Positions 5,446 through 21,016 of a stretch of 64,000 bases of DNA are shown in pieces. This DNA comes from Terriglobales bacterium (lineage in GTDB: Bacteria; Acidobacteriota; Terriglobia; Terriglobales; Acidobacteriaceae). The DNA is taken from positions 1 to 64,000 of the forward strand of contig DATHMF010000116.1 of NCBI GenBank assembly GCA_035487355.1, in the 5' to 3' direction. Both the position numbers and the translations under genes were made by a program. The first letter of the stretch is position 1; each line of letters starts with the position of its first letter. The notes under the pieces are model-generated. The model had not been told where the DNA came from. It did not search any database and saw only the letters and a list, made by a program, of their open reading frames with translations.

Positions 5446-8400
5446 ATGTCTGAGTTCGTTCACCTACATTTGCATTCGGATTACTCGCTGCTCGATGGCG
5501 CCTGTGACGTCGAGAAGCTGGTTAATCGCGCCAAGGAACTGAAGATGCCGGCGGTGGCCGTTACCGACCACGGCAATATCTTTGGGGCATTCGCATTTTA
5601 CGATGCCGCCCAAAGGGCCGGCGTTAAGCCCATCATTGGCTGCGAATTGTATGTCTGCAAAAAAGACAACCACCGCGATCCGCCCGAGGGCGATACCTAC
5701 AACCATCTTTGTGTACTTGCGGAAACCGATGAAGGCTACCGCAACCTGGTCAAGATCACCTCAGAGGCCTCTTTGCACGGCTTTTATTACAAGCCGCGCA
5801 TCAGCAAGAAGTTTCTCGCCGAGCATTCCAAAGGATTGATTGGCCTCTCGGGGTGCCTGAAAGGCGAGGTGGCAGAATTTCTAACGGAAGGCAAATACGA
5901 CGCAGCCCTGAGCGCGGCTGGCTTCTACCGCGAAATATTCGGAAAAGAAAACTTCTTCCTTGAAATTCAAGATCAGGGACTTGAACTCGAACACCGTATT
6001 CACAACGATCTCTTTCGTCTGGAAAAAGAGACTGGCATCCCCATGGTGGCGACCAATGACAGCCACTACCTCTGCGAGGACGATGCCCAGGCCCACGATG
6101 TCCTCGTCTGCGTACAAACCGGGAAGACCGTGCAGGATACCAACCGGCTCAAGTTCCACGGCAATCAGTTTTTCGTGAAATCGGCGGAAGAGATGCAGCG
6201 CGTGTTCAAGGATGTGACCAGCGTCATCACGCGGACGATGGGCATAGCCGAGCGTTGCAACGTGAAATTAGGCAAGGTCAAGAACCCGTTTCCGTTTTTT
6301 GAGGTCCCCAGCAGTTACACCCTGGACAGCTATTTTGAACACGTCACCCGTGAAGGATTTGCTCGACGACTGAATCTGCTCCGCGAGGCGGAGCGCCAGG
6401 GACGTTTGAAGAACCCGATCACCGCCTATGAGCAAAGGCTGACGCAAGAGATTGCCATCATTCAACAGATGAAGTTTCCTGGCTATTTCCTTATTGTTTG
6501 GGACTTTATCCGTTATGCTCGCGAACATAATATTCCAGTCGGTCCGGGCCGTGGCTCGGCGGCCGGTTCTCTGGTTTCTTACGCGCTCGCCATCACCGAT
6601 ATTGATCCTTTACAAAACGAGCTTCTCTTTGAGCGTTTTTTGAATCCGGAGCGCGTCTCGCTGCCTGACATTGATATTGATTTCTGCATGAACCGCCGCG
6701 GAGAGGTGATTAATTACGTTACGCAAAAGTACGGACGCGACCAGGTAGCACAGATCATTACATTTGGCACCATGGCGGCCAAAGCAGCGATTAAGGATGT
6801 GGGCCGCGCCATGGACATGCCTTACAACGAAGTCGACCGCATCGCCAAGATGGTCCCCACCACTCTTAATATCAAACTCGATGATGCGTTAAGAGACTCA
6901 CCGCCTCTGCAGACTGCTTACGAAAATGAACCACAGGTGCGTGAGTTGCTGGATACGGCGCGCAAGCTCGAAGGACTGGTTCGTAATGCCGGTGTGCACG
7001 CCGCTGGAGTGGTGATTGCCCCCGAGCCGCTGACCAACCTGGTGCCGCTACACCGCACCAAGAACGATGAAATCGTAACCGCCTTCGACATGAAGGCCAT
7101 TGAAAAGATGGGCCTGCTCAAGATGGATTTCCTCGGGCTCACCACGCTCACCATCGTTGATGATGCGCTCAAGCTGATCGTGCAGCGGGAAGGCAAGTCG
7201 CTTGACTTGAACCAGATTTCGCTGGATGACGCTGCCACCTATGAAAGAGTTTTTCACACCGGGCTGACCTCGGGCGTGTTCCAGTTTGAATCGCACGGCA
7301 TGCGCGATGTCTTGCGGCGCTACAAGCCGAACGTGGTGGAAGATCTTACCGCTTTGAATGCACTTTACCGGCCAGGGCCGATTCAAGGCGGCATGATTGA
7401 TGACTTTATTGAGCGCAAGCACGGCCGCAGAAAAATCGAATACGAACTGCCCGAGTTGGAAGCAATCCTGAAAGAAACCCTGGGCGTGATTGTTTACCAG
7501 GAGCAGGTGATGCAGATCGCCAACCGGCTCGCTGGATATTCCTTGGGCGAAGCCGACCTGTTGCGGCGGGCCATGGGTAAGAAAAACGCAGAAGAGATGG
7601 CGGCGCAGCGCGAGCGTTTTGTTAAAGGCGCGATTGATCGCGGGTTTCCTGAGAAAAAAGTAGTCCGAATCTTCGATCTGATGGAGCAGTTCGCCGGATA
7701 CGGCTTCAACAAATCACACTCTGCTGCGTACGCCCTGCTGGCCTATCACACCGCATGGCTCAAGACGCACTATCCGGTGGAGTTCATGGCCGCTCTGCTT
7801 ACATCGCAGACCGGCAGCACCGACAGCGTGGTGAAGTACATCAATGAATGCCGGGAGATGGGAATCCCTGTTGAAGCCCCTGATATCAACGTCAGCGATG
7901 CTTATTTCACGCCACACGAGAGTGCAATTCGCTTTGGGCTGGCGGCGGTCAAGAACGTGGGACAAAACGCCATTGACTCTATTGTTACTGCTCGTAAAAA
8001 AGAAGGGAAATTTAACTCCTTTTTTGAATTTTGCGACAAAGTAGACCTGCGTCTGCTCAATAAGCGCGTGCTGGAATCGCTCATCAAAGCCGGAGCCATG
8101 GACCCATTGGGAAAGCGCGCACAGCTCATGGCGGTCCTGGATAAAGCTATGGAACAGGCACAAAAATCGCAGCGCGACGCGGAATCAGGCCAGCATGGTT
8201 TGTTTGGCGTTTTTGATGATGGACCGTCCCCGGCAAGCGAGAATGGGCATCTGCCTGACCTTCCGGATTGGGATGAGCACCAGCGACTGTCGTCAGAAAA
8301 AGAAGTGTTGGGTTTCTTTATCACCGGCCATCCGCTGGAAAAATACAAATCAAAGCTGGAAGATTTCAACGCAATGGATACCGAAGCCATTTCTGGGCTG

Positions 8401-14962: not shown

Positions 14963-15519
14963 TCAACTTCTTAAATCCTGGGACCATGATTGCCGGCCGT
15001 GCCTTTTCGGATCTTGTGCGCTCGCGACAGGTTCTGAGCTGACGGTGCTTTGATCCTGTTGTGCTTCCTGCTGGTCTTCAGGTTGATCTGGCTTACAGAG
15101 CTGGGAGTAGTAGCTCATGGTTCGGGCTGAGGCCAGTTGCTCCAGCAGAGCGGTTTCTTTCAGGGAGCGGAGCAAGAGGCAGGCCATATTGCAGAGAGCC
15201 TTGGCAGCGCGGAGGTCTATCTCTCTGCGGCGGAATTGGTTGACGGTTTCGGCCAGCAGTTTGGTGATGTCGGAGGGAGTCTCGAGAGAGAGAACGGGGA
15301 GACCGGGAGGCATGGTGATTGTGTCAGCCTCACGGCTGGGGGCTTCTTCTGGGCTTCTTTCTGCACTTCTTTTTGGGCCTGGGCTTGTTTGTTCTTCTGC
15401 TCGGGATCGTGAAAAAAGCAATAGAATTTGCCGGCTTCGACATCGCCGTGGCAGCGGGCGCCGATTTTGCTGATGTATCGGCAGCGGGGGGTTTTGGCGT
15501 TAACTTCAGCGTTCTTCAT
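14963..15519 (-). pseudogene. frameshifted paralogue of the adjacent Cys/His-rich protein
   Basis: The reading frame from ATG 15519 (AGGAGA 9 bases upstream) encodes a Cys/His module, PRCRYISKIGARCHGD then FYCFFHDPEQK, matching the intact neighbour at 15627-16064. After about residue 58 the frame no longer matches, while a second frame (ending 14963) continues with LETPSDITKLLAETVNQFRRREIDLRAAKAL, matching LETPSDVAELLSETINQF of the neighbour. The two halves join near GGGGG at 15338-15342 and need a -1 shift (or one lost base). This suggests an inactivated gene or a sequencing error in a homopolymer. The C-terminal tail is longer and unrelated to the neighbour. Confidence 0.75.
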
Positions 15520-15626: not shown

Positions 15627-16064
15627 TTAATTCATGAGGTAATCGTTTGGGCCGGGGTAAGCCTCGGTCTTTTTGGCGGAGCGGGCAGCCCTGCGCTTTT
15701 GTGTGTCGGCCACTTTCATGAGGCTGAGCATGACGTTGGCCATTTGGCCGACGGCTTTGGCGGTGTCCATGTCTATCTCTCCCATGCGAAACTGGTTGAT
15801 GGTTTCGGATAACAGCTCGGCCACATCGGAGGGTGTCTCCAGCGATTTGGCGGAGAGATTGGGAGGCAGGAAGGTCTTTTTTTCAGTCGCACCGCTGCGA
15901 ACCTTTCCGCCTTGCTTGCGGGCTGCGGCCTGTTTTTGTTTCTGCTCGGGATCGTGAAAAAAACAATAAGGTTTGCCGGTCTGGGGATCGGCCTGGCAGG
16001 GGCTCCCGTTTTTGCTGGTGTGCTGGCAACGGGGCTTGTTGCCGAACAATTCTTTAATGCCCAT
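15627..16064 (-). CDS. small Cys/His-rich (zinc-ribbon-like) protein
   Basis: 145 aa. Residues 12-39 hold CQHTSKNGSPCQAD and YCFFHDPEQK, a C-x9-C-x10-C-x3-H pattern that probably binds zinc. A basic linker (QKQAAARKQGGKVRSG) leads to a helical region, LETPSDVAELLSETINQFRMGEIDMDTAKAVGQMANVMLSLMKV. An excellent ribosome-binding site (AAGGAGGT) precedes ATG 16064. The frameshifted copy lies 107 bases downstream in the same direction, so this is a tandem duplication. Similar short modules occur in many acidobacterial proteins of unknown role. Confidence 0.75.
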   Translation of the reverse strand: MGIKELFGNKPRCQHTSKNGSPCQADPQTGKPYCFFHDPEQKQKQAAARKQGGKVRSGATEKKTFLPPNLSAKSLETPSDVAELLSETINQFRMGEIDMDTAKAVGQMANVMLSLMKVADTQKRRAARSAKKTEAYPGPNDYLMN

Positions 16065-16558: not shown

Positions 16559-16987
16559 GTGAAAGTGGCATCCGACAAAATCGAACTTCAGCGTATCTTT
16601 GACCGCACTGATGGACATTGTCACATCTGCTGGAAAAAACTCTGCTTTAACAATTACGGTGATTTTGGTTCACGGGGCTGCTGGGAGGTCGAGCATTCAA
16701 TCGCCCGCGCCAACGGCGGCACCTGCCACGGAAACAACAAGTACGCCGCGTGCATTTCATGCAATCGGTCAAAAGGCACAAATTCCAGTCGTCTTGCGCG
16801 TTTGCTCAATGGAAGAACTCGTGCTCCGCTTTCGAGAAGTAAAAAAGAGAAAATACGGAAAGACAACACAGTCGGCGGAAGTTTCCTAGGCGGCTTAGCT
16901 GGTGCTTTTCTTGGGCCCGGCGGGATTCTACTCGGAGCGATCTTAGGCGGCGTCATTGGTAATTCGATTAAACCGGAGGCGAAATGA
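16559..16987 (+). CDS. HNH nuclease domain with C-terminal glycine zipper
   Basis: 142 aa. Residues 16-80 form an HNH module with zinc-binding pairs: CHICWKKLCF (21-30), the active-site region WEVEHSIARANGG (about 42-54) and NNKYAACISCNRSKGT. A basic linker leads to a glycine zipper at about 105-138 (GGSFLGGLAGAFLGPGGILL and GAILGGVIGNS), a type of segment that inserts in membranes or oligomerises. GTG 16559 is preceded by AGGAG (16550-16554) 4 bases away; GTG 16565 has better spacing and is an alternative. The stop overlaps the next start by 4 bases (ATGA). The fusion suggests a nuclease tethered to a membrane or oligomer; its target is unknown. Confidence 0.8.
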   Translation: MKVASDKIELQRIFDRTDGHCHICWKKLCFNNYGDFGSRGCWEVEHSIARANGGTCHGNNKYAACISCNRSKGTNSSRLARLLNGRTRAPLSRSKKEKIRKDNTVGGSFLGGLAGAFLGPGGILLGAILGGVIGNSIKPEAK

Positions 16988-17685
16988 GCCAGATCAGATT
17001 GCCAGCAACCTGTATCGCTGAGTTAGCGTACGCCACACCAGGTGCTCGAGCAAGCAAGCTTCGACCTTATAAATATAGTAACCGGGGTGAAGGTGCAGGC
17101 CGCAGCGCCTACTACAAAGGAACAAGAGATACGGTACGAGAGTACCATCGCTCCCAAAACAATACTCGTGTGCTTCGTCAAGCTATCGAGAGACTCACTG
17201 CAATCGAGAATGACTTGAGCTTGCCAAGACAAACTCGTACTAAGGCCAGAAAGAATATCGAAGCCTTATATGCATACGAAGATTTATATGGGGCTCGCAA
17301 GTTTACCGTGATGCCAAACCATTTTCTGGCATTGGAGGTTGGTTCGGTCACAATTAAAGCACAACCGGACCTATGGGTTTCAGAAAATGGAACAGAGGTT
17401 CTAATAAAGATAGGAGTAGCTAAGAATAGGAGCGCTGACCAAGTGGATTTGCTGCTGCACCTGATAAGAAAAGCTGCAATAAAAACCGGTTATAAAATTC
17501 GTGCGAGAAATGTCGTCTATCTGAATACCAAGACAGGTGAAGAGGTAATATCGCATCGTCCTTTGAATTACTTTAATCGCACTATTGTGAATACTTGCCA
17601 CGCAATTAGCGGTGTTTGGCAGGATGTGCGTCCTCCTGTGCCACGTCAGCGACCAGTTACATCGCAAAATGTAAACTCCAAATGA
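16984..17685 (+). CDS. hypothetical protein with degenerate PD-(D/E)XK-like core
   Basis: 233 aa, overlapping the HNH gene by 4 bases. The N-terminal half is basic and polar. The C-terminal half has a beta-rich block, FLALEVGSVTIKAQPDLWVS then EVLIKIGVAKN, with Pro-Asp at 128-129 and Lys 142. A helix (VDLLLHLIRKAAIKTGYKI) and a strand pair (RNVVYLNTKTGEEV) follow. The order strand-PD-strand-K-helix-strand is that of PD-(D/E)XK nucleases, but the residue two before Lys is Leu instead of Glu/Asp, so it may be inactive or use a variant site. No family name is certain. Translational coupling to the HNH protein points to a joint function. Confidence 0.7.
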   Translation: MSQIRLPATCIAELAYATPGARASKLRPYKYSNRGEGAGRSAYYKGTRDTVREYHRSQNNTRVLRQAIERLTAIENDLSLPRQTRTKARKNIEALYAYEDLYGARKFTVMPNHFLALEVGSVTIKAQPDLWVSENGTEVLIKIGVAKNRSADQVDLLLHLIRKAAIKTGYKIRARNVVYLNTKTGEEVISHRPLNYFNRTIVNTCHAISGVWQDVRPPVPRQRPVTSQNVNSK

Positions 17686-17694
17686 GGGTGTCAC

Positions 17695-17925
17695 ATGACA
17701 AAGAATACGGGCAATGAGGAATCCACGAACGATTTGCAAAAGACAATGAAGGCTTTATTGTTAGTTCAGATTGGCGGTTGGAAGCAGCGGCAACAGGTCG
17801 AGTTACTAGACAGGGTGGGGTTTAGACAGACAGAGATCGCTCAACTATTAGGAACAACCGGAAATGCCGTGAGTGTTAGATTGGCCGAAATTAGAAGGGA
17901 AGCGAAGAGGGCTTGTAAAGGTTAA
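17695..17925 (+). CDS. small HTH protein 1 of 6
   Basis: 76 aa. A polar N-terminus is followed by a helix (KTMKALLLVQIGGWKQRQQVELL) and a helix-turn-helix, RVGFRQTEIAQLLGTTGNAV then SVRLAEIRREAKR, which resembles sigma-70 region 4. GAGGGTG stands just before the ATG, 9 bases after the preceding stop. It is the first of six consecutive small proteins with the same plan: one hydrophobic helix, then a Gly-x-x-x-x-E-I-A-x-x-L-G-type HTH and a basic tail. Likely a DNA-binding subunit; the target is unknown. Confidence 0.8.
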   Translation: MTKNTGNEESTNDLQKTMKALLLVQIGGWKQRQQVELLDRVGFRQTEIAQLLGTTGNAVSVRLAEIRREAKRACKG

Positions 17926-17940
17926 CAGAAGGGAGTGGCA

Positions 17941-18171
17941 ATGGCTAAGAAAAAGGAAGAAGCAACGGAGATATCCAATCCAATTCTCGATGAACTGCGC
18001 AAACTTGTGCGCCTAGCAGCGCTGTCGTTAACAAAGGGAAGAACCCAACGTGAACAAATCTACATGATGGCAGATGCTGGAATGAATAGAAATGAGATTG
18101 CAAGCTTGGTGGGAACGAGCGCTGGAACCGTTAGCGTGGAACTGTCGAATCGCAAAGATAAAAAGCGCTAG
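17941..18171 (+). CDS. small HTH protein 2 of 6
   Basis: 76 aa from ATG 17941 (AAGGGAG 6 bases upstream); an in-frame GTG 6 bases earlier overlaps that site and is less likely. A charged N-terminus (AKKKEEATE), a helix LDELRKLVRLAALSL, then the HTH AGMNRNEIASLVGTSAGTVS and a basic end KDKKR. It has the same layout as protein 1, but identity is confined to HTH core positions, so the copies are strongly diverged. Confidence 0.78.
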   Translation: MAKKKEEATEISNPILDELRKLVRLAALSLTKGRTQREQIYMMADAGMNRNEIASLVGTSAGTVSVELSNRKDKKR

Positions 18172-18201
18172 ATATTTAGGGGTGTGGAAAGGTCACCAAC
18201 T

Positions 18202-18429
18202 ATGAAGAAGAATAATTCCTCAAGTGATGAGTCTCAAGATACACAACTAAAGTACCTTGAATTAATTGCGGCTTTACTTCTTGAATCGCAGTATGAAGGA
18301 AATCAAACTCGTCAAATCGAGTTCCTTGTTAGACAGAACTTTACTTCGCAACAGATCGCAGGCCTTCTTGGGAAGGATCCAACTCAAGTTAGTAAAGACA
18401 TTTATAAAATCAAAAATCGGAAAAGCTAA
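18202..18429 (+). CDS. small HTH protein 3 of 6
   Basis: 75 aa from ATG 18202, chosen because AAAGG lies 9 bases upstream; a GTG at 18184 is in frame. Acidic-polar N-terminus, then LKYLELIAALLLESQ, QTRQIEFLVRQ and the HTH NFTSQQIAGLLGKDPTQVSK with a basic tail. The next gene starts 4 bases after its stop. The aliphatic helix before the HTH is shared by all six proteins and could mediate dimer or hetero-oligomer formation. Confidence 0.75.
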   Translation: MKKNNSSSDESQDTQLKYLELIAALLLESQYEGNQTRQIEFLVRQNFTSQQIAGLLGKDPTQVSKDIYKIKNRKS

Positions 18430-18433
18430 AGAT

Positions 18434-18592
18434 ATGCCTAACAACGATGACAAAACCAAAGATTTGCTTGAATCACTTCTGCTACTACAACTATACAATC
18501 TGGGAATATCCCAGGGGGCTATTGCCAAGTTCATGGGAAAAAGTAAAACATGGGTCAATGAGCGACTCGAAGGCCTTCCCAAGAAGCAATAA
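18434..18592 (+). CDS. small HTH protein 4 of 6 (shortest)
   Basis: 52 aa. ATG 18434 follows the previous stop after 4 bases (CTAAAGATATG). The sequence has the leucine-rich helix KDLLESLLLLQLYNLG followed directly by the HTH GISQGAIAKFMGKSKTWVNE and a short basic end. It lacks the middle helix segment (the QRxQ region) of the other five. It is too short for most automatic gene callers; the layout, position and codon pattern support it. Confidence 0.65.
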   Translation: MPNNDDKTKDLLESLLLLQLYNLGISQGAIAKFMGKSKTWVNERLEGLPKKQ

Positions 18593-18647
18593 CGAAATCT
18601 CTTGATTAATTTCCGCCCCGACGCACTCAATGCGAGATGAGGAAACG

Positions 18648-18914
18648 ATGCGAAAGAAGACTGGTCTTAGTGCTGAAGAGCTTTTGCAAGATGTTAACAA
18701 GAAACTTGATCAATTTTTGCGAGATGTTAATAAAAAACTTGATCAGCTTATTATGATTATTAGCATACAAGCATCAGGCGAAAGAAGCGTGACTGATAAC
18801 GCTCGGATGTTTAAGACTGCAGGTTTAGATAACGAAACCATTTCCGAAATCCTGGGCACAACGCCAGCGACAATACGCACGCTTACTTCTAATTTAAGGA
18901 AGAAAAAGAGATGA
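18648..18914 (+). CDS. small HTH protein 5 of 6 with duplicated helix
   Basis: 88 aa from ATG 18648 (GAGG about 6 bases upstream); an ATG at 18630 is also in frame. Residues 14-36 contain a duplicated unit, LLQDVNKKLDQ and FLRDVNKKLDQ, encoded by two nearly identical 33-base stretches, forming a longer coiled-coil-like helix. Then IMIISIQ, KTAGLDNETISEILGTTPAT and a basic tail NLRKKKR. It lies 55 bases after protein 4 and overlaps protein 6 by 4 bases. Confidence 0.75.
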   Translation: MRKKTGLSAEELLQDVNKKLDQFLRDVNKKLDQLIMIISIQASGERSVTDNARMFKTAGLDNETISEILGTTPATIRTLTSNLRKKKR

Positions 18915-19123
18915 CCGAAACAAGGGAAACTAGAGAAGAACGTTTGCTCGCAGTAATTTTGCTGCAACTGATGAAAGGCGCAACTCAAAAGGAGAAGGCG
19001 TTGCAACTTAGCATTGCCGGCTTTACGAATGTTGAGATAGCAGATCTTCTTGGAATGAAGGCGAACGTAGTCGCTCAAAGCGTTTACGACGCGAAGAAAG
19101 TCATGAAGTTCAAGAAGAAATAG
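18911..19123 (+). CDS. small HTH protein 6 of 6
   Basis: 70 aa. Its ATG overlaps the stop of protein 5 (ATGA), indicating translational coupling. Layout: charged start (TETRETREERL), helix LLAVILLQLMKGATQKEKAL, HTH IAGFTNVEIADLLGMKANVV, then a basic end KFKKK. The HEPN-like gene begins 3 bases after its stop. Confidence 0.78.
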   Translation: MTETRETREERLLAVILLQLMKGATQKEKALQLSIAGFTNVEIADLLGMKANVVAQSVYDAKKVMKFKKK

Positions 19124-19126
19124 CTT

Positions 19127-19639
19127 ATGCCTGTCCCTAAGGATTTCAGACGATTCAAGTATCAATCGGTACGCATCGATCGCTGTGGCAGGTCAATTGG
19201 CCGTAACTCTTATTGGAAGCTTTATGCTATAGAGAACTCCTGGAGAATCATCATCCATTCGGTCTTGTCAGTCCAAATCAGCCCGACGTGGTGGGCCGTT
19301 GCTGTCGGTCCGAAGAAGCAAAGGACCCTTACGAGCTTCCGAAATCAATATCTTAACAATCCCTTGCATGCATCACCTGGCCATCACGACATCTACTTAT
19401 TTTTTCTGAGTGATCTTACTAAGATGCTTGCCGATTACCGTAATTTGTTCATTACAGTTCTGTCTGATATAGATCAATGGATAGTTCGTCTGGAAACGAT
19501 ACGTCTTCCCAGAAATTTGGTCGGTCACATGAATTATCCAAATACCTATGACAGACAGAGAATTGACACCACTTATGCGTCGCTGCCTGGAGCTTTTGCA
19601 CAGCTAAATCAGAACGGAATAACGGTTCTGATTCCTTGA
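19127..19639 (+). CDS. HEPN-like protein (putative RNase)
   Basis: 170 aa. Largely helical after residue 25: NSYWKLYAIENSWRIIIHSVL (28-48), HHDIYLFFLSDLTKMLADY (86-104), LFITVLSDIDQWIVRLETI (107-125) and LPRNLVGHMNYPN. Arg 129 and His 134 form an Rx4H motif, the catalytic signature of HEPN RNases, and Glu 36/Arg 40 in helix 1 fit the usual conserved pair. HEPN proteins are common RNA-cutting effectors in defence and toxin systems. It is the last gene of the plus-strand operon, convergent with the nuclease gene ending 10 bases away. The family is assigned by motif and helix pattern only. Confidence 0.65.
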   Translation: MPVPKDFRRFKYQSVRIDRCGRSIGRNSYWKLYAIENSWRIIIHSVLSVQISPTWWAVAVGPKKQRTLTSFRNQYLNNPLHASPGHHDIYLFFLSDLTKMLADYRNLFITVLSDIDQWIVRLETIRLPRNLVGHMNYPNTYDRQRIDTTYASLPGAFAQLNQNGITVLIP

Positions 19640-19649
19640 AGACCAGGTT

Positions 19650-20429
19650 TTATCTGAGCTTGTTCGGTGGTACTGGATTAACGTCTACTACAATGGTTCG
19701 TATTGTGCCAGACGCTCTCGAAATTACTGCTGGTATAGCTTGTTTCTGATTTAGCTTGCGTACATCAAAGAAAACAAGCCAACCTTCTCGGCGGGCTCTG
19801 TTTCGCATGTAACTCTCCAATTGAGCTGGACCCGGAATGCCGCTGCCACTTAGCATCTTCAATTCAACAATGTGAACCAAGCCTGATGAGAAGGTCACGA
19901 GGACGTCAACAAAGCCAATGCCAGAAACTGCTTCACGAAGCAAGGAGCCTCTCCCTGCAAGTTTTGCCTTGGCAAAGACTCCGAGGAGTTCTTGACCATG
20001 TTTTTCGGGATGTTTTTTAAGCCGTCCTTTTGATCGAGACTCCCAAAAAGAATTTACCGCCTCCGCTTCGACGGTGTGCTTAAATTCATCAAGAAACTTA
20101 CGAATAGTGATGCGGGGAAGTACTGTTAGGCGCTTTCCGGAAGATTCAACCCTTTCCGCGACAGCCTTTGTGAGGAAGATCAGCCTTTTTTTGAACTTGG
20201 TGTCCAAGAGAGAAAGAATGTTTAGGCTGAATTCATCACGATTGATATTCGTGTTTCTACGATAGAAGGCCGTACGAATTCGTTTCATTGAAGCAAGAAA
20301 TTCGGCTACTGTCCTACCTGACCGCTCCTGGTCATAGAGCTTGGCCAAGGTAATGGCATACCGATCAGGATCACTAAGGCCGCGACTAACAAAGTAATCC
20401 TCGAGATATCCTTGGACTGCGAAAATCAT
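19650..20429 (-). CDS. PD-(D/E)XK nuclease family protein
   Basis: 259 aa. The N-terminal part is helical (residues 1-160). The C-terminal domain has the full nuclease set: Glu 166 in LLREAVSG, Asp 175 in GFVDVLVTF, ELK (Glu 189, Lys 191) in HIVELKMLSG and a RecB-type QxxxY (Gln 203, Tyr 207) in PAQLESYM, then WLVFFDVRKL. It should cut DNA using a divalent metal. Its gene starts 14 bases after the stop of the winged-helix regulator, and they probably form a two-gene unit. The ATG is the first codon of the frame (MIFAVQGYLED). The helical N-terminus may bind a partner. Confidence 0.75.
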   Translation of the reverse strand: MIFAVQGYLEDYFVSRGLSDPDRYAITLAKLYDQERSGRTVAEFLASMKRIRTAFYRRNTNINRDEFSLNILSLLDTKFKKRLIFLTKAVAERVESSGKRLTVLPRITIRKFLDEFKHTVEAEAVNSFWESRSKGRLKKHPEKHGQELLGVFAKAKLAGRGSLLREAVSGIGFVDVLVTFSSGLVHIVELKMLSGSGIPGPAQLESYMRNRARREGWLVFFDVRKLNQKQAIPAVISRASGTIRTIVVDVNPVPPNKLR

Positions 20430-20443
20430 GTCGGTATCACAGA

Positions 20444-20884
20444 CTATCTCTTCTTCTTTGTTGCCTGGTTAGTGTGTCCGTCAGGCCTAAGATTGTATTC
20501 TTTGCAAAGATATCTAGTGATTTGAAGAGTGCGATCAATCGGTTTTTTTGCCCATATATCGCGTCTACCGGTGGCATCCACAATTTCTAGAAGCCCCTCT
20601 TCTTTAAGTATGCGTAGCTCCCGACTTACATTTGGTTGCTTCATTCCCAGGTGCTGAGCAATTTGAATAACACCTCTATTCCCATTGGCAGCGAGATAAA
20701 TCTGCGCTCTGCGCTTGCCGTGCCTGAAAATCTTTTTAACGGTCTCAGCGTGCTTACCGGCCTCTGCACGTAGCGCAAATGCATTCGTTTCATCAATTGA
20801 CTCTACCTTATTTTCGATATGAGCGAGGCGGCTGAGTATCTGTTGGTAGGACTCTTCTCTTATATCTCGTTTTTGGTTCTTCAT
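20444..20884 (-). CDS. winged-helix transcriptional regulator
   Basis: 146 aa from ATG 20884; the frame extends upstream into a repeat, which is not used. The N-terminal 50 residues form a coiled helix (SYQQILSRLAHIENKVESI). Then an ArsR/MarR-like winged helix: RRAQIYLAANGNRGVIQIAQ, LGMKQPNVSRELRILKEEGL and a wing LEIVDATGRRDIWAKKP. No metal-binding cysteines are seen. The gene is followed by the PD-(D/E)XK nuclease. Two direct TGAACCTAAA repeats 30-51 bases upstream of its start could be an autoregulatory operator. Confidence 0.75.
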   Translation of the reverse strand: MKNQKRDIREESYQQILSRLAHIENKVESIDETNAFALRAEAGKHAETVKKIFRHGKRRAQIYLAANGNRGVIQIAQHLGMKQPNVSRELRILKEEGLLEIVDATGRRDIWAKKPIDRTLQITRYLCKEYNLRPDGHTNQATKKKR

Positions 20885-20913
20885 TTCTTCTTTGGTCTCT
20901 TTCTCATCTATGC

Positions 20914-20935
20914 TGAACCTAAAGTTGAACCTAAA
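20914..20935. promoter_or_regulatory. direct repeats upstream of the winged-helix gene
   Basis: TGAACCTAAA occurs at 20914-20923 and 20926-20935 with a 12-base period. The position just upstream of a regulator gene suggests an operator. Read on the gene's strand the units are TTTAGGTTCA. Confidence 0.4.
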
Positions 20936-21016
20936 ACTGCAATGAGGTAGGAAGTGCCGTTCTTTCTTAGCATAACAACGCCTTCTAAGAAGTCCAAGAC
21001 CGAAGTGGGGAACGTC

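Follow-up and report, generated by a model that had tools for sequence, protein, structure and literature searches.

PDC-M34 is a computational phage-defence candidate made up of two genes, A and B; the PDCs were nominated by guilt-by-embedding screening, and for most of them experimental tests are still awaited (PMC12988326). HEPN proteins of the Swt1/Abi2 type form a group that also occurs in restriction-modification operons, according to Anantharaman et al. 2013 (PMC3710099). In type II toxin-antitoxin operons with HTH antitoxins, one or more small HTH genes lie upstream of a toxin-type enzyme.

The locus analysed here, an operon within a window of 64,000 nucleotides from a Terriglobales bacterium (contig DATHMF010000116.1), resembles each of these in part. 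Its HEPN gene (P7), like all the HEPN genes found inside related arrays in other genomes, scores as the B component of PDC-M34, but the A gene is lacking: the A profile matched none of the small HTH proteins (S1-S6), P8 or the HNH protein of the operon, and scored 1e-77 on the positive control, L048. That control (6996-8217), also from this bacterial family, is a true A+B pair and lacks small HTH genes. PDC-M34B was also tried as an anchor for finding further arrays and rejected, as a screen of the small ORFs at nine other loci found arrays in none. The array HEPN proteins share the RNxxxH motif of the Swt1/Abi2 type, and several of the homologues match Pfam HEPN_Swt1, but they are encoded with a small HTH array, a setting not described in the available part of PMC3710099. 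As in type II toxin-antitoxin operons, small HTH genes precede a toxin-type enzyme, but an array operon can hold as many as six distinct HTH genes, and effectors of five kinds replace one another. In the open-access library searched, we came across no account of small HTH arrays that are tandem and non-redundant and have exchangeable effectors; each effector by itself is of a known family, and PADLOC includes the HEPN gene alone, as PDC-M34B.

Organisation of the operon

Six consecutive small HTH genes of 52-88 aa had been reported at 17695-19123 by a first-pass annotation made from the sequence alone, and all six ORFs are present in tandem on the + strand. The run is longer than was thought, a tight operon of nine genes, all on the + strand at 16559-19639 with gaps of -4 to +55 nt, encoding an HNH protein, P8, S1-S6 and P7.

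Gene 1 (16559..16987, +, GTG start) encodes an HNH-type endonuclease that matches HNH/endonuclease VII profiles in PHROGs (E 1.4e-7 to 3e-7) and Pfam HNH below threshold. At its C-terminus is a glycine-zipper stretch, GGSFLGGLAGAFLGPGGILLGAILGG, the character of which suggests membrane insertion. An HNH gene was found in none of the operons of other arrays, so this one is probably local cargo. It overlaps by 4 nt the gene for P8 (16984..17685, +, 233 aa), which has a single good relative, 30% identical and encoded directly after an HsdS-like gene (L004). A PDLxV...IK motif is invariant between the two and, judged by eye, its region is possibly a degenerate PD-(D/E)XK domain. Searches for P8 in 297 genomes of the phylum and for P7 in 61 relatives found little. 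P8 was also considered as a version of the ~300-aa partner protein described below, and this was rejected since profile comparison shows no relation.

The small HTH genes follow, all on the + strand; their types (T numbers) are defined below. S1 (17695-17925, 76 aa, T7) is 53% identical over 64 aa to L110:1335-1550, which adjoins a 300-aa protein gene, and S2 (17941-18171, 76 aa, T0) is 66% identical over 56 aa to L110:1118-1351. S3 (18202-18429, 75 aa) is without a clear counterpart, its best relative (L089) being 29% identical. The shortest, S4 (18434-18592, 52 aa, T3), is 44% identical to L111:6659-6961, S5 (18648-18914, 88 aa, T1) 40% to L111:6244-6471(-) and S6 (18911-19123, 70 aa, grouped in T6) 57% to L111:6032-6244(-). 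The starts given are the likeliest, judged by purine-rich sequence upstream, and longer in-frame starts are possible for S2, S3 and S5. S5 contains an internal duplication of 11 residues, encoded by a 33-nt direct repeat at 18682/18715 (18682-18745, 90% identical), which lengthens helix 1 and is absent from the L111 orthologue.

P7 (19127..19639, +) is a HEPN RNase-like protein of the Swt1/PDC-M34B kind (PADLOC PDC-M34B, E 7.2e-13) with an RNLVGH motif, and the S5, S6 and P7 genes overlap or nearly touch. In its RNxxxH (RX4-6H) active-site motif R129 and H134 are invariant over eight homologues, P7 included, and its orthologue L111:5517-6029(-) is 48% identical. From what is known of the HEPN family, P7 would be an RNase.

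The operon lies in a low-GC patch at ~16.0-21.0 kb (40-51% GC; the housekeeping DNA on either side has mostly 53-61%). Terminal repeats were looked for around the island and none were found, no integrase was seen among its ORFs, and an Rfam search of 14-22 kb gave no match. Seven relatives were compared downstream of ftsK; in each the DNA is different, and none has an array at that place. Also in the low-GC DNA, and convergent to the operon, are genes for a 259-aa protein (19650-20429, -) that matches no library, looks PD-(D/E)XK-like by eye and has the motif VDV...HIVELK, and for a Csa3/ArsR-like winged-helix protein (20444-20962, -; PADLOC Csa3, E 2.8e-10). The two genes perhaps form a second module, of defence or mobile type. 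On the other side lie tandem paralogues (15217-15519, - and 15627-16064, -) with a CQHTSKNGSPCQADPQTGKPYCFFHDPEQ-type motif and a weak match to DUF5763; a similar gene occurs near the array in L087 (1852-2664).

The small HTH proteins

S1-S6 have a variable charged start, an aliphatic helix 1, a second helix, an HTH and a basic tail. This is the plan first proposed for them with the second helix added, which S4 lacks. An AlphaFold2 model of S2 has exactly four helices (14-30, 36-45, 50-57 and 61-75; mean pLDDT 85). Pairwise BLAST connects S1, S2, S3, S5 and S6; S4, the most distant member, has no pairwise match to the other five and was recovered by profile. Profile searches did not split the six into unrelated families.

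The label 'sigma-region-4-like' given to them earlier is a loose one, as Pfam, NCBIfam and PHROGs gave only generic, sub-threshold HTH matches for S1-S6 (Sigma70_r4_2, HTH_38 and HTH_23 in Pfam). The best score against Sigma-70 region 4 (PF08281) was 19.8 bits, below the gathering cut-off of 25.7, and Foldseek found no match to the small HTH model at E < 0.001. The array proteins resemble Sigma-70 region 4 and LuxR-type HTH domains weakly in profile and fold, but they are free-standing (52-118 aa), carry an extra aliphatic helix and match only below curated cut-offs. Between the window genes and their counterparts in other genomes synonymous change is saturated (pS 0.66-0.94) while non-synonymous change is lower (pN 0.32-0.42), which indicates real genes under protein-level constraint.

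Arrays in other genomes

A first profile of the six proteins led to an array of three genes in a second genome from this family. A nine-member profile found arrays in 9 of 250 family genomes, the window's included; its remaining matches were mostly long ORFs (at least 146 aa), the kind of match that ECF sigma factors and other regulators would give. At the level of the phylum the cassette is sporadic (2 of 297 genomes). Together with the window, 23 other loci make 24 small HTH arrays of one to six HTH genes each, from which 88 proteins were collected. They occur in Acidobacteriota, Thaumarchaeota, Nitrospirae, Verrucomicrobia, Planctomycetota, Proteobacteria, Chloroflexi, WOR-3 and CPR, and so many independent tandem arrays in other phyla exclude a chance origin for the run of six ORFs. 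Two candidates were discarded as false positives, an isolated single HTH ORF (G208, L037) and a viral match to a terminase small subunit-like gene (L095).

Arrays of one or two genes are not the rule, as 17 of the 24 have at least three HTH members. The same six subunits are not present in each genome, and with member number (one to six) and composition both varying the fixed hetero-hexameric ring or filament suggested earlier is unsupported. L103, for example, has a single, weak HTH member.

The description of the six as old, diverged and distinct paralogues kept together has stood up well. When sister arrays were excluded, the closest relative lay in a different array for 86 of the 88 proteins; on sequence comparison S1-S6 are not local duplicates. 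Clustering at 42 bits gave 17 types, and no array held two proteins of one type, against 5.3 such duplicates expected from shuffling (P about 0.003); at 38 bits there were 3 against 7.8 expected and at 46 bits none against 3.4. Recognition helices are 17% identical within an array, no more than random pairs, and 42% identical within a type across arrays, a contrast partly built in by defining types on similarity; within a type they are conserved across phyla. Non-redundant types with recognition helices that differ within an array argue, in line with the first-pass annotation, against six interchangeable regulators.

Five of the six window proteins are of a type that recurs elsewhere: S1 and S2 in L110, S4 in L110 and L111, and S5 and S6 in L111, where the S5-S6-HEPN block has the same order as in the window. 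Judged by these counterparts, the window joins S1, S2 and S4, a set that elsewhere accompanies the 300-aa protein, to the S5-S6-HEPN block. T0 is the most widespread type (nine arrays), and co-occurs with HEPN, Ymh and 300-aa effectors. T3, T4 or T11 often stands immediately before the 300-aa gene (T3 in L102, L110 and L111), and T1, T6 or T9 before HEPN. T1 occurs in 5 of 7 arrays with HEPN and in 3 of the 17 others, an excess (one-sided Fisher about 0.02) that comes from a hand count and ignores kinship.

Effectors and partner proteins

The genes that accompany the arrays were overlooked in the first-pass annotation, and they are the main clue to function. HEPN genes of the P7 kind lie inside or beside the arrays of L097, L099, L104, L105, L106 and L111. 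The array in L091 adjoins a Ymh/TIGR02391 protein, that in L089 a SIR2_2 protein (on a gapped contig) and that in L093 a protein with a weak CAP12-type TIR match. Among the other neighbours are an N6/N4 DNA methylase (L100), an Eco57I-type restriction-modification enzyme (L103), AbiEii (L097) and a serine recombinase beside the array of L106; no mobility gene is common to the array loci. Beside a three-HTH array in L094 is a gene (700-1998, -) for a 432-aa protein with an RRDAIIH motif and no library match, which is possibly another HEPN-type effector.

Most arrays are followed by a ~300-aa protein with an N-terminal wHTH and a PD-(D/E)XK-like C-terminal half, for which no family match was found in Pfam, NCBIfam, PADLOC or the PDB. 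Foldseek matched the wHTH half only, to MarR, ArsR and TubR structures. In an AlphaFold2 model (pLDDT 86) the C-terminal half has the order helix-strand-strand-strand-helix-strand, and residues E162, E185, D188, K208 and Q227 (L114 numbering) are invariant. This order and the invariant D188 and K208 would fit a PD-(D/E)XK restriction-type nuclease, but the usual acid two residues before K208 is replaced and the domain is fused to a MarR/ArsR/TubR-like wHTH. Without the canonical (D/E)XK acid nuclease activity is uncertain, and we regard the family as a probable conserved nuclease. No homologue was found in the genome of the window, its operon included.

The 300-aa protein used alone as probe, with one genome per GTDB species, found 19 loci, in Acidobacteriota, Gamma- and Alphaproteobacteria, a Thaumarchaeota MAG, Nitrospirae, Planctomycetota, WOR-3, Chloroflexi, two CPR lineages and Verrucomicrobia; four of them (L096, L097, L102 and L110) are identical to loci found earlier from the HTH side. 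Small HTH genes stand beside the 300-aa protein in 18 of the 19, the exception (L113) being a truncated copy that adjoins a transposase-like ORF. At ten loci reached from the HTH side, counting the window, the array is accompanied by the 300-aa protein in five cases and adjoins a HEPN, Ymh, SIR2 or TIR-like gene in four more.

Proposed function and alternatives

Computationally, the arrays recur with non-redundant types, are linked to effectors, evolve under purifying selection and are sporadically distributed. Since they flank effectors and have restriction-modification, AbiE and recombinase neighbours, they can be read as parts of a modular, defence-type cassette. We give an even chance to the reading in which S1-S6 provide the DNA binding for a mobile cassette of this kind, one that holds and releases effectors through mixed DNA-bound assemblies; the cassette is probably an anti-virus system. 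It would combine between one and six small HTH proteins, all of different ancient types, with one or more lethal effectors: in the window the Swt1-type HEPN RNase with the HNH protein and P8, elsewhere the wHTH-PD-(D/E)XK-like, HEPN, Ymh, SIR2 or TIR-like proteins. Toxicity directed at RNA, DNA or NAD, and a defence role, would follow by analogy with the effector families. We infer that mixed oligomers form on DNA, with the aliphatic helix 1 as the contact between HTH proteins and with a separate half-site of a composite sequence recognised by each type. In the resting state the assembly would restrain the effector and probably repress the operon; phage or other foreign DNA that offers or disturbs the composite site would cause the effector to be released or positioned, and RNA or DNA to be cleaved. 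The varying number and identity of the HTH proteins, down to the single weak one of L103, imply no fixed assembly. Counted against the cassette reading are the lack of an operator-like motif common to the upstream regions of 20 arrays (a weak test), the absence of the 300-aa partner from the window genome, the uncertain nuclease activity of that partner without the canonical acid, the Foldseek match to its wHTH half only and the phage and plasmid collections, which yielded no more of it than the C-terminal domain. A bolder reading, which we think unlikely, is a new class of combinatorial immune system. Here each HTH protein would be specific for one short DNA word, and several would assemble together on foreign DNA, for instance at sites resembling phage promoters, to activate or direct exchangeable effectors (nucleases, RNases or NAD-consuming enzymes), a natural protein code that separates foreign from own DNA.

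The small basic HTH genes directly upstream of HEPN, SIR2 and TIR-like toxins could instead encode antitoxins and autorepressors, each neutralising one effector or effector surface, with no sensing of foreign DNA beyond the loss of a labile antitoxin. The tight coupling of S5, S6 and HEPN fits this, as do the types that tend to stand just before the 300-aa gene (T3/T4/T11) or HEPN (T1/T6/T9). One or two antitoxins would be enough, however, yet 17 of the 24 arrays have at least three distinct types; T0 is present whether the effector is HEPN, Ymh or the 300-aa protein, and the recognition helices are kept from phylum to phylum. We find the toxin-antitoxin explanation doubtful. The missing upstream motif is weak evidence against simple autoregulation. 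HTH proteins are usually regulators, and the resemblance to LuxR and sigma region 4-type domains would suit six separate transcription factors that have stayed together fortuitously or because they allow graded control of operon and island. Against this, they have no signal or sensor domain and no common upstream motif, no type is duplicated, and similar mixtures recur with the same effector genes in distant phyla, which makes plain regulators very unlikely. We consider it just as improbable that the HTH and 300-aa proteins serve the transposition, replication or segregation of a mobile element rather than defence. The low-GC patch, the serine recombinase by the L106 array, the actinobacterial plasmids that carry the 300-aa C-terminal domain and the likeness of its wHTH to plasmid TubR speak for such a role, but the HEPN, Ymh, SIR2 and TIR-like partners are toxins and not mobility genes, the island shows neither terminal repeats nor an integrase, and the loci share no mobility gene.

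If the cassette reading is right, defence catalogues would gain an unnamed, widely scattered cassette with a new partner architecture, a multi-gene defence operon with possibly a categorically new recognition principle, and a conserved 300-aa family of probable nucleases that current libraries overlook. It could also uncover combinatorial DNA reading. Why a single operon should retain as many as six distinct, tiny DNA-binding proteins is a puzzle that can be tested directly, as there are cultured array hosts: Granulicella mallensis X5P3, the cassette of which has six HTH genes and the 300-aa protein, Rudaea cellulosilytica DSM 22992 and Afipia sp. OHSU_II-C1.

Occurrence on plasmids and phages

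Searches by tblastn with S1 and S2 against plasmids and with S6 against phages gave chance-level matches or none. The only part of the cassette found in the phage and plasmid collections is the C-terminal domain of the 300-aa protein, which also occurs on actinobacterial plasmids. On an unverified contig labelled as phage (MT837022.1; L127, 2196-4691) this domain has another N-terminus and is followed by a SIR2_2 protein, a pair that is a possible further variant of the system.
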